Shown here: positions 13,349 through 21,804 of the stretch, piece by piece
How positions within the stretch are numbered: position 1 is the stretch's first letter
Layout of the letters: every line of letters begins with the position of its first letter
Source: Altererythrobacter sp. XM-24bin4
GTDB taxonomy: Bacteria; Pseudomonadota; Alphaproteobacteria; Sphingomonadales; Sphingomonadaceae
DNA length: 64,000 nucleotides
Assembly: GCA_003149575.1 (NCBI GenBank)
Contig: QCWG01000001.1
Span: 1,021,183-1,085,182, forward strand
Reading direction: 5' to 3'
The notes under the pieces: generated by a model
Told to the model about the DNA's origin: nothing
Seen by the model: the letters and a program-made list of their open reading frames with translations, nothing else
The model's database searches: none
Translations under genes and position numbers: made by a program

Positions 13349-14574
13349 TTGGTAAGCTGCGAGAAATCGGGCAAAATTTGGGCCCGGGCGCGATAGTCAC
13401 TGCGGCCTTTATCGGCCCGGGGACCGTTACCACGTCGACGCTTGCGGGTGCGAACTTTGGTTATGTGCTGCTCTGGGCACTGCTGTTTGCGACGTTTGCC
13501 ACGATCATTCTGCAGGAAATGGCTGCAAGGCTTGGTGTGGTGACGCGCAAAGGGCTTGGCGATGCACTGGCAGAGCTATTCCATGCGTCCGTTTGGCGGT
13601 GGCCATTGATCGTACTGGTCGGCGCGGCGCTCTATATGGGCAATGCCGCATATGAAGGTGGCAATCTGGCTGGTGCTGCGCTGGGCCTCTCCGCCATTGC
13701 CGGGGAGAGTGCATGGGCATTTCGCGGTTCGATTGGCGCCATTTCGCTGCTGGCGGCAGCGCTGCTTGCATCGGGCAATTATCGCCATATCGAACGTGTG
13801 CTGATAGCGCTTGTGATGGTCATGGCGCTTGCTTTCGTGGCGACATTTCTGATCGTGCAACCAGACTTGGGCGCGATGCTTCGCGGCACGTTCTTGCCGA
13901 CTATTCCAGACGGCGCATTGATGACCGTCGTTGCGCTGATCGGCACAACTGTGGTCCCTTACAACCTGTTTCTCCACGCGAGTGCTGTGCGAAACCGGTT
14001 CAGCGGGCCGGAAGATCTACCGGCCGCACGCACGGACACGGTCGTGACTATCGGGATCGGTGGTTTGATAGCCATGCTGGTTGTCGCGACTGCATCTGCC
14101 AGCCTGTTTGCAGCCGGAATTGCTGTTACCAGCGCGGCTGACATGGCAGCGCAGTTTGAACCCTTGTTCGGTTCGAACGCGAAATATCTGATGGGGGTGG
14201 GGCTGTTCGCAGCCGGGTTGACCAGCGCGATCACAGCGCCGCTGGCGACGGGTTATGCGATGTCCGAAATTCTTGGCGTCAGCGAAGAGACGAAGCCGAA
14301 TGTCATGCGCTGGGTGGCGCTAAGTGTGATCCTGATCGGAGCGGCACTTTCGCTGACTGGTATTCGTCCAGTGACCATTATTCTCTCCGCGCAATTCGCC
14401 AATGGCATCTTGCTGCCGGTCATCGCGGGCTTCCTGCTTTACGCCATGAATCAGGAAAAACTGCTGGGTAAGCACGTAAACAAGATAGCAGCCAATGTAG
14501 CGGGCGTGGCTGTTTTGGTGATCGCGGCGGGGCTTGGTGCGCGCTCGGTGCTAGGCGCGCTGGGGGCGATTTAA
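13345..14574 (+). CDS. Nramp-family transporter with altered metal site
   Basis: The 409-residue protein has about 11 membrane helices and the overall Nramp layout, opening with LGPGAIVTAAFIGPGTVTTS. Canonical Nramp manganese/iron transporters carry DPGN in helix 1 and MPH in helix 6. Here the matching sites read GPGT (24-27) and VPY (204-206), so the Asp, Asn and Met metal ligands are all replaced. The start overlaps the oxoprolinase stop. In Bacillus subtilis the Nramp-family gene ycsG lies beside the 5-oxoprolinase gene pxpA (ycsF), so this association recurs. I infer that the protein may carry 5-oxoproline or a similar substrate rather than a divalent metal. It ends convergently on galK with a 4-base overlap. 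Confidence 0.85.
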   Translation: MIGKLREIGQNLGPGAIVTAAFIGPGTVTTSTLAGANFGYVLLWALLFATFATIILQEMAARLGVVTRKGLGDALAELFHASVWRWPLIVLVGAALYMGNAAYEGGNLAGAALGLSAIAGESAWAFRGSIGAISLLAAALLASGNYRHIERVLIALVMVMALAFVATFLIVQPDLGAMLRGTFLPTIPDGALMTVVALIGTTVVPYNLFLHASAVRNRFSGPEDLPAARTDTVVTIGIGGLIAMLVVATASASLFAAGIAVTSAADMAAQFEPLFGSNAKYLMGVGLFAAGLTSAITAPLATGYAMSEILGVSEETKPNVMRWVALSVILIGAALSLTGIRPVTIILSAQFANGILLPVIAGFLLYAMNQEKLLGKHVNKIAANVAGVAVLVIAAGLGARSVLGALGAI

Positions 14575-15608
14575 GCGCCGCGAATGGTATCATTCAGCGT
14601 TGCTTGCGGATGTGAAGCCAACAGCTTGGCCAACCAATTGTCCAGCACATCGTTTTCAACGCAAGCGACGATGCACCCGCCAAATCCGCCGCCTGTTAGC
14701 CGTGCTCCAAGCGCGCCAAACTCCTGTGCATCGCTGACCAAGGCGTCAATCTCCGGCAACGACATATCGAAATCGTCGCGCATCGATATGTGGCTCTCGT
14801 TCATCGCTTGACCCAGCGCGGCAATGTTATCGGCCTTGAGCGCTTGTATCGCTGCCAGCACGCGGCGATGCTCGGTTGCGCAATGGAGCGCGCGTTTCCG
14901 CGGGATTTCAGCGAGCGAGGACTGCGTCACCTTCTCGGGGTCGAGCAGGCAAAGATCCTCGGTCCCGAAAAAGGCCTTGGCCTCGTCGCATTCCTGCTTG
15001 CGCTCGGCATAGCGACCTTCGGTCAGCTTGCGGAACACACCGGAATGAATGACCGCGATCTTGTGGGTCTTCGGCAGAGCCAACAGTTCGTATTCAAGAG
15101 TCTTCGTATCAAGCGCCATTGCAGTGCCGGGCGTCGCGAGTGCGACCGCCATCTGGTCCATGATACCGCAAGGCACACCCATATATTCGTTCTCGACCCG
15201 GCGTGCGGCGATAGCGATCTCAGCGTCCGACTGCGCTCCATCGCCAGCTTCTCGCGCGGCTTTCAGTATCGCGACGATCAGCGCGGCGGAGGAAGATAAG
15301 CCTGAGCCTGCCGGTATTGTCGAAGTGATTGAAACATCTGCGCCCTGCGCGATGAGCCCCATGTTACGGGCTTCCCGTAGCGCGCCGACGACTGGATCAG
15401 ACCATTCTCCGCTCGCGCTATCTGAAAGATCACGCACTGCTTTGTCATAGCTGATAGACCGCGCGATGACCTGATCATCGCTGCTTGCTCTAAGTGTCAG
15501 TTCAAGCCCAACCGACAGTGCCGCGGGAAGCACCATTCCGCCATTGTAATCGGTATGCTCGCCAATCAGATTGACGCGACCTGGAACCCGAATATGGACT
15601 TCAGACAT
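14571..15608 (-). CDS. galK: Galactokinase
   Basis: The 345-residue GHMP kinase has the galactokinase signature GRVNLIGEHTDYNGG at residues 10-24, the ATP loop PAGSGLSSSAA near 100, and GARLTGGGFGGCIVA near the C-terminus. It phosphorylates galactose to galactose-1-phosphate with ATP in the cytoplasm, the first step of the Leloir pathway. ATG 15608 sits inside the 3' end of galT (8-base overlap). This makes galK the last gene of the alpha-galactosidase-glpD-galT-galK operon. No galE or mutarotase is in view. Confidence 0.95.
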   Translation of the reverse strand: MSEVHIRVPGRVNLIGEHTDYNGGMVLPAALSVGLELTLRASSDDQVIARSISYDKAVRDLSDSASGEWSDPVVGALREARNMGLIAQGADVSITSTIPAGSGLSSSAALIVAILKAAREAGDGAQSDAEIAIAARRVENEYMGVPCGIMDQMAVALATPGTAMALDTKTLEYELLALPKTHKIAVIHSGVFRKLTEGRYAERKQECDEAKAFFGTEDLCLLDPEKVTQSSLAEIPRKRALHCATEHRRVLAAIQALKADNIAALGQAMNESHISMRDDFDMSLPEIDALVSDAQEFGALGARLTGGGFGGCIVACVENDVLDNWLAKLLASHPQATLNDTIRGA

Positions 15609-20312: not shown

Positions 20313-20361
20313 TTCGATTGAGGCCGCTATCGCGCGAGAAGAGGGAAGGGGAGAAAAATCA

Positions 20362-21804
20362 ATGGCCAATCCGATCCAGGTCGCGGTATTCCTTGGCATC
20401 ACAGCTCTAATTGCCTTTGCTACATTCGTTCATTGCAGGGGCAAACGCGGCACCGGCACCGGTGATGAACGTGATTACTTCCTCGCGAATGGCGGGTTGG
20501 CCTGGTACTTCGTTGCTGGTTCTATCACGCTGACGAACCTGTCTACGGATCAGCTTGTCAGCATGAATGGCAATCAGATGTTGTTGATCGTCTGGTGGGA
20601 ATTGGCCGCAGTCGTCGGCCTGTTCATTCTCGCCTTCGTATTCCTGCCAGTTTACTACAAAAACAACTGCACGACGACGACCGAGCTGCTGCAGAAGAAA
20701 TATGGCGACAAGCACATTCGCGCGCTGATCAGTCTGCTGTTCCTTGCCGGCAATCTTTTCATATTCTTGCCTGCCATACTCTATGGCGGCTCGCGATTTT
20801 TCCTTTCGCTGTTGGGCTATGATGGCGGAATAGAGAACATCATGCTGGTCTCGGTGGTTCTCGCGATCGTGGGCGCAGCCTATGCGGTCTTCGGCGGATT
20901 GCGCGCTGTCGCGGTCTCAGACACTTATTCAGGGGTTCTGATACTTAGCTTGGCGTTGGTTGTGGTCTATCTCGCTCTTCAAGCGATCAATTTCGATTTC
21001 AGCGGCATTCCGGCTGATCGTTTGACGCTGATCGGAGATGGCGATTCCGATATACCCTGGACCACGTTGCTGACAGGCATGATCTTCATCCAGACATTTT
21101 ACTGGTCAACGAACCAGACGATCACTCAGCGCGCGATGGCTTCACCGACCGTGAAGGAAGCCCAGAAGGGCGTGCTCGTGGCGGCTGCTATCCGACTGAT
21201 GATCGTTCCATTGATTGTGGTCGTACCAGGTATCGTGGCTTACAAGCTGTTCGGCGATGTGCCGTCCGATGGGGCGTACGGCATGATAGTCGCGGAAGTT
21301 CTCCCGACATGGCTGTCTGGCGCGTTTGCTGCGGCTTTGTTTGCAGCCGCACTCACCACATTCAATTCGATTCTGAACGCTTCTGCCGCGCTATATGTCT
21401 GCGATATGCATGAAGCTTATATCGACAAGCCGAGGAAAGTCGGCCGTCTGGGTGCGATTGTCTCGATCATCATGAGCCTGCTCGCGCTGACACTGGTGCC
21501 GTTCTTCGCCAGCCAGGAGAGCCTGATCAACACTGTACAGCAGCTCTACGGCCTGCTTTCCATGCCGATACTTTCGGCTTTCATTGTGGGGCTGCTTTTT
21601 ACCAATGTGCAAGCTGCTGCGGCCATGATAGGCGTGGTGTCAGGCGTGGTCATCTACGGCTTCTGGAGCATGGTCTGGGAACCAGCGCACTACATCCACG
21701 GCATGGCGGTGACCCTGCTGTTATCGGTGTTCGTGTCGCTGTTAGTGAACCGGGTACTGCTCGGACAAAGCGCTCAGCCGGTTTGGTCCTCCGCCAAGGC
21801 CTGA
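20362..21804 (+). CDS. Sodium/solute symporter, SGLT-like (SSS family)
   Basis: The 480-residue membrane protein has about 14 helices. It carries SSS-family motifs such as YFLANGGLAWYFVAGSITLTN near the start, GGLRAVAVSDTYSG in the middle and the WSTNQTITQRAMAS segment typical of sugar-transporting SGLT homologues. It should import a sugar or glycoside with Na+ across the inner membrane. It is divergent from the alpha-galactosidase operon, which makes the operon's substrate the likely cargo. ATG 20362 follows GGGAAGGGGAG. Its stop lies one base from that of the convergent cytochrome c gene. Confidence 0.9.
   Translation: MANPIQVAVFLGITALIAFATFVHCRGKRGTGTGDERDYFLANGGLAWYFVAGSITLTNLSTDQLVSMNGNQMLLIVWWELAAVVGLFILAFVFLPVYYKNNCTTTTELLQKKYGDKHIRALISLLFLAGNLFIFLPAILYGGSRFFLSLLGYDGGIENIMLVSVVLAIVGAAYAVFGGLRAVAVSDTYSGVLILSLALVVVYLALQAINFDFSGIPADRLTLIGDGDSDIPWTTLLTGMIFIQTFYWSTNQTITQRAMASPTVKEAQKGVLVAAAIRLMIVPLIVVVPGIVAYKLFGDVPSDGAYGMIVAEVLPTWLSGAFAAALFAAALTTFNSILNASAALYVCDMHEAYIDKPRKVGRLGAIVSIIMSLLALTLVPFFASQESLINTVQQLYGLLSMPILSAFIVGLLFTNVQAAAAMIGVVSGVVIYGFWSMVWEPAHYIHGMAVTLLLSVFVSLLVNRVLLGQSAQPVWSSAKA

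Follow-up and report, generated by a model that had tools for sequence, protein, structure and literature searches.

Introduction

Joint degradation of galactose and glycerol from a single glycoside touches three described kinds of system, the Leloir galactose operons, the glycerol (glp) regulon and the lac operon. In Egel's proposal, cited in PMC8333865, the lac operon serves galactosylglycerols, and the same source lists galactolipids as main chloroplast membrane components. A characterised GH36 enzyme makes isofloridoside from galactose and glycerol, and in red algae galactosyl-glycerols form the main assimilate (PMC8509150). For Alteromonas macleodii, galactolipids are the predicted substrate of the TonB receptor MASE_00935, which has an alpha-galactosidase in its neighbourhood (PMC7190382). 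In the literature searched, partly as excerpts and with most subscription papers outside it, no bacterial galactosyl-glycerol operon was found. Here, we describe a cassette of five genes, galK, galT, glpD, a GH36 alpha-galactosidase gene and a divergent gene for a sodium/sugar symporter of the SSS family, in a window of 64,000 nucleotides of the genome of Altererythrobacter sp. XM-24bin4 (assembly GCA_003149575.1, contig QCWG01000001.1, positions 1,021,183 to 1,085,182). Judged from gene content and neighbourhoods across genomes, this cassette is probably a catabolic unit for galactosyl-glycerol with glycerol as the aglycone.

One alpha-galactosidase clade is accompanied by glycerol genes

The family survey covered 397 genomes, of which 107 matched GH36, 327 glpD and 66 galT at the thresholds used. 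Neighbourhoods were fetched for all 107 GH36-positive genomes and for a selection of the glpD or galT matches, some of them on short contigs on which linkage can be missed; their genes were labelled by BLAST against proteins of the window and a few relatives, with an NCBIfam check on examples, among them GlpK, GlpD and GlpR labels in relatives. A GH36 gene was counted as linked with glpD, glpK or glpR at most 6 kb away, the identity cut-offs for the glp genes being set by hand and slightly different between two sets, and trees were built by a quick method.

In the family tree of 108 GH36 rows, 27 of the 33 rows of one clade are linked (Shimodaira-Hasegawa-like approximate likelihood ratio test, SH-aLRT, 88) versus 1 of the 75 remaining rows. 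Named genomes were then scanned and the best 80 of 594 matches kept, which brought in Hyphomonadaceae, Parvularculaceae, Caulobacteraceae, Vibrionaceae and actinobacteria; eight of the 80 loci that duplicate survey loci and L153 (a 27% match) were omitted from the combined tree, and no GH36 row was obtained for L154 (G223) on annotation. The pattern persists in the 179 rows of this tree, with linkage in 40 of 50 clade rows (SH-aLRT 93) versus 3 of 129 others, the three being L114, with glpK 4.1 kb away, L185 and L186. L093, a GH36 outside the clade with glpD and glpK 12-14 kb away, was not counted as linked. The combined tree needs 7 label changes, as compared with a mean near 39 after shuffling, and therefore demonstrates clustering, not independent origins.

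The linked clade members, which belong to several alphaproteobacterial families, display about nine gene orders (Table 1). A cluster of this kind is also carried by Pontixanthobacter luteolus (L163). That the linkage persists although both the glp gene and the gene order vary is the strongest point for the glycerol link of the alpha-galactosidase, a link which the preliminary description of this DNA had proposed and which the survey supports.

Table 1. Gene orders around GH36 in the linked clade (the slash marks, in the window, the gap between divergent genes)
Gene order	Occurrence	Remark
SSS/GH36-glpD-galT-galK	Window, Erythrobacteraceae	
SSS/GH36-glpD	L056	with another type of galT and galK
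glpK-SSS/GH36-glpD-GH42	L057	
SSS/GH36-glpR-glpD	L058	galT and galK further on
glpK-SSS/GH36	nine Sphingorhabdus/Sphingopyxis-type loci	
glpK-SSS/GH36-galT-galK-glpR-glpD-GH42	Parvularcula, L172	one contig; glpK partial, label by BLAST only
SSS-GH42-GH36-glpD-glpK	Hirschia maritima, L173	
galK-galT/GH36-glpR	Henriciella type, L174, L175, L180	SSS, glpD and glpK nearby, glpK label by BLAST only; the L174 contig stops before any glpK
galK-galT-SSS/GH36-glpR	L176	

Operator-like sites in loci with glpR

For the GlpR-like proteins of L058, L172 and L174, GlpR is the best model with 281-316 bits, which is below the cut-off of 331. Upstream regions were scored against what we take to be the Escherichia coli GlpR operator, and predicted GlpR-like sites precede glpD with 17-18 of 20 positions in L174, L175 and L180 and with 16 of 20 in L172 and L058. 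Before GH36, predicted sites of 15-16/20 are found in five of the seven loci that bear glpR (L058 and L183 among the seven being one locus), a score reached by 0-4 of 200 shuffles in those five loci and by 28 of 200 in L058. Where glpR is not linked, six of the 180 regions upstream of GH36, a number that counts duplicates, reach 15/20, and all six are clade loci. With a 16-letter data-guided motif at a threshold of 10/12, 9 of 50 clade rows are recovered versus 3 of 128 others (p 7e-4); at 9/12 the numbers are 13 of 50 versus 19 of 128 (p 0.09). No common inverted repeat shared across the clade was found in its GH36/SSS gaps.

Three clade loci without a linked glp gene, L078, L079 and L086, have a GlpR-like site of 15/20 before GH36, located in the gap between GH36 and SSS, which scores 9/12 by the second motif.

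Cumulatively, the clade linkage, the Parvularcula cluster L172 and the GlpR-like sites before both GH36 and glpD make glycerol the likely aglycone.

The cassette and its genomic complement

The coordinates and names of the cassette genes in the preliminary description agree with gene calls and family matches (Table 2), and the junction DNA bears out the overlaps it gave, which amount to 8 bases for galK/galT and 4 bases each for galT/glpD and glpD/GH36. These overlaps suggest translational coupling of the four minus-strand genes.

Table 2. Features of the cassette in the window
Feature	Positions	Strand	Basis
galK, galactokinase, 345 aa	14571..15608	-	TIGR00131 258 bits, cut-off 227 (NCBIfam)
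galT, divergent galactose-1-phosphate uridylyltransferase, 359 aa	15601..16680	-	Pfam GalP_UDP_transf 63 bits, cut-off 22
glpD, FAD-dependent glycerol-3-phosphate dehydrogenase, 497 aa, TTG start	16677..18170	-	NF008899 738 bits, cut-off 360
GH36 alpha-galactosidase, 700 aa	18167..20269	-	Pfam Melibiase 373 bits, cut-off 27
Divergent GH36/symporter intergenic region, 92 bases	20270..20361		no GlpR-like site found
SSS-family SGLT-type sodium/sugar symporter, 480 aa, divergent	20362..21804	+	TIGR00813 196, cut-off 184; vSGLT 2xq2 E 5e-39

The alpha-galactosidase has PF02065, PF16875 and PF16874 all above cut-off, that is Melibiase with the GH36 N- and C-terminal domains, and is related to AgaA and AgaB of Geobacillus (AgaB match E 3e-94). 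D449 and D514 align with the aspartate pair of AgaA/AgaB, which we take to be catalytic, and are kept in 50/50 and 49/50 clade rows, respectively, the remaining row having a gap. Position 383 is F in 50/50 clade rows and V in 109/129 other rows. By inspection of the first residues, to which no prediction program was applied, no obvious signal peptide is seen. The symporter lies above the cut-off of TIGR00813 and below that of PRK10484 (371 vs 401) and can be aligned with vSGLT along most of the protein; of six residues which, with their numbering, we assume to be the sugar contacts of vSGLT, four are identical when read by eye (Q69, E88, Y263 and Q428), with N260 replaced by Q and K294 by R.

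The galT of the window is below both NCBIfam galT cut-offs and above the Pfam cut-off only. It represents a divergent lineage with strong matches (E < 1e-100) in 27 of the 397 family genomes. A gene for an Nramp-type transporter (13345-14574) is convergent with galK, the 3' ends overlapping by 4 bases.

Elsewhere in the genome (2.53 Mb, completeness 99.8%) the expected partners are present. The cassette copy is the one glpD match of the whole genome, and the sole FGGY kinase match is a glycerol kinase over the NCBIfam cut-off (G000:C1:2253161), so that GlpK and GlpD are both encoded, each over its cut-off. One galE match over cut-off (G000:C1:838283) completes the Leloir set with galK and galT, the latter by Pfam only. 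Both glpK and galE are unlinked to the cassette, as the preliminary description had anticipated; glpK is not clustered with glpD here, as it is in the relatives L057, L172, L173, L175 and L180. A search of the genome for a glycerol facilitator gene (glpF) gave no more than a truncated MIP frame that is AqpZ-like by eye; this aquaporin-type MIP gene (L073 1393-1821) appears truncated, with the remainder in another frame or past a stop.

In the proposed route, the SGLT-type symporter would import intact galactosyl-glycerol, which GH36 would cleave in the cytoplasm, and both galactose and glycerol would likely be burnt. Galactose would enter metabolism through GalK and GalT of the cassette together with GalE, whose gene lies outside it. 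GlpK, encoded apart from the cassette here and within the cluster in several relatives, would phosphorylate glycerol, and GlpD of the cassette would oxidise the product to dihydroxyacetone phosphate.

A shared chromosomal site

Cassettes of the window type are mostly located at one chromosomal site with the same flanking genes. In the window genome nothing stands between the two flanking genes of this old site, which are adjacent (L250 14536-16252; G000:C1 near 926,200), and all five cassette genes, with glpD among them, are grouped about 109 kb from it.

Two kinds of SSS symporter (approximately 75-86% and 51-55% identity to that of the window) occur at the same site in close relatives (L033-L055), seemingly interchangeable. 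L046 and L052 have a TonB-dependent receptor between SSS and GH36, L052 also an AraC-type regulator, and a gap of similar size between SSS and GH36 is seen in L168 and L169.

Weighing the explanations

Several observations speak against glycerol as the aglycone. Ten of the 50 clade rows are without a glp gene within 6 kb, three of them (L171, L177 and L190) on short or cut contigs; the Fisher test (p 7e-27) takes no account of relatedness and concerns a clade picked after the labels had been seen, and the linkage of glp genes to the clade could have arisen once. Outside the clade, GH36 of the family often stands with GH42, SSS, galT and galK, without glp genes. Separation of the clade by the operator motif is modest and holds at one threshold only, and the best GlpR-like score in the GH36/symporter gap of the window is 10/20, reached by 200 of 200 shuffles, so that GlpR control is not claimed for the window, as there is no such site in it. 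Furthermore, among 26 family-survey copies of the shared site 17 have GH36, eight have glpD without GH36 and one has SSS-galT-galK without either, counts that are no frequencies because the loci were chosen by a GH36, glpD or galT match. As eight copies hold glpD without GH36, this gene may be resident there. Four of these eight genomes (G323, G322, G062 and G130) have no GH36 match at all, G180 has SSS-GH36-galT-galK elsewhere without glpD (L035, L036), and in G002, G048 and G015 the GH36 located elsewhere is a more distant one. The preliminary description had argued for glycerol from the position of glpD next to the alpha-galactosidase and had named glpD at this place in strains lacking that enzyme as evidence to the contrary; with the eight copies of this kind, the position is ruled out as sufficient proof of a glycerol aglycone, and from its overall reading the glycerol link is retained and the reasoning from glpD position abandoned. 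An explanation built on the same copies, namely that a general alpha-galactoside operon for melibiose, raffinose or galactan fragments was put together around a resident housekeeping glpD with which it has no substrate in common, the gal genes having arrived on either side of a glpD already in place, is in our view improbable. It accommodates the lone glpD copies, the copy with SSS-galT-galK and no glpD, the GH36 locus of G180 away from glpD and the single glpD of most relatives, which is thus also used for lipid turnover, but leaves unexplained why members of the same GH36 clade have glpK or glpR as neighbours elsewhere in the chromosome and in further families, why glp neighbours are missing from the other GH36 groups of the family (1/75) and why the five genes moved jointly in the window genome.

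Within the preferred reading, a catabolic unit for galactosyl-glycerol, two kinds of substrate come into consideration. Digalactosyl-glycerol or galactosyl-glycerol from plastid galactolipids, for example digalactosyldiacylglycerol (DGDG), is a tentative candidate, from which GH36 would remove the alpha-linked and the beta-galactosidase GH42 the beta-linked galactose, leaving glycerol. Digalactosyl-glycerol fits as well because GH36 genomes usually carry GH42: a strong match (E < 1e-129) is present in 81 of 107 GH36 genomes (29 of 33 clade genomes and 52 of 74 others) versus 2 of 290 without GH36, GH42 is located within the glp-bearing clusters L057, L172 and L173, and the four lone-glpD genomes without GH36 have no GH42. 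Galactosylglycerols as bacterial food also have a precedent in the proposal by Egel as excerpted from PMC8333865. On the other hand, GH42 was rejected as a clade-specific marker, as it accompanies GH36 of both groups (29/33 clade vs 56/74 other GH36 genomes at E < 1e-100, p 0.2, with 9/290 in genomes without GH36); carriage of a digalactoside by an SGLT-type symporter is putative, and the GH42 gene of the window genome (G000:C1:1007423-1008574) is outside the window and unlinked, about 26 kb from galK. Floridoside or isofloridoside, put first in the preliminary description, from which GH36 alone would free galactose and glycerol, is a somewhat doubtful candidate. The cassette requires GH36 only, most clade clusters are without a linked GH42, and in the excerpt of PMC8509150 galactosyl-glycerol is the main red algal assimilate and a GH36 takes glycerol as aglycone; yet floridoside gives no use to the GH42 present in 29 of 33 clade genomes. 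The clade also includes Sphingorhabdus, presumably a freshwater lineage, which speaks against floridoside too. The GH42 data thus lean towards galactolipids without deciding the substrate, since GH42 accompanies GH36 of both groups.

Comparison with known systems

A wider proposal, for which we see even chances, is that the enzymes of the GH36 clade are hydrolases dedicated to galactosyl-glycerol which, with an SGLT-type symporter, galTK, glpKD, GlpR and GH42, would form a widespread, partly GlpR-controlled alphaproteobacterial regulon for plastid galactolipid head groups and algal galactosyl-glycerol osmolytes. If galactosyl-glycerol is indeed the substrate, a GH36 gene of this clade next to glpD, glpK or glpR would be a gene signature of a galactosyl-glycerol carbon route, applicable in Sphingomonadales, Hyphomonadaceae and Parvularculaceae and testable with few substrates and cultured strains.

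With Leloir galactose operons that include an SGLT-type symporter and GH36, the cassette shares GH36, galK, galT and the SSS symporter, and a similar Leloir-type set, mostly with GH42, occurs in other GH36 groups of the family; the cassette differs in having glpD inside the operon, to which clade relatives add glpK or glpR. With the glp regulon of GlpK, GlpD and GlpR, the clade clusters have glpD, glpK and glpR-like genes in common, and the glpR-bearing loci operator-like sites, but in the clade these genes stand together with those for an alpha-galactosidase and for galactose use, and no glpF was found in the window genome. The lac operon comprises a beta-galactosidase and no glycerol genes, whereas the cassette combines an alpha-galactosidase with glpD. 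Common to both is a hydrolase with an importer, proposed in the case of lac for galactosyl-glycerols from galactolipids (PMC8333865, excerpt). The Alteromonas locus of MASE_00935 resembles the cassette in belonging to a marine bacterium and in placing an alpha-galactosidase beside a carbon-responsive receptor for which galactolipids are predicted; Alteromonas represents another bacterial class, and the excerpt of PMC7190382 names no glycerol genes, which in the window and its relatives are the companions of the alpha-galactosidase.

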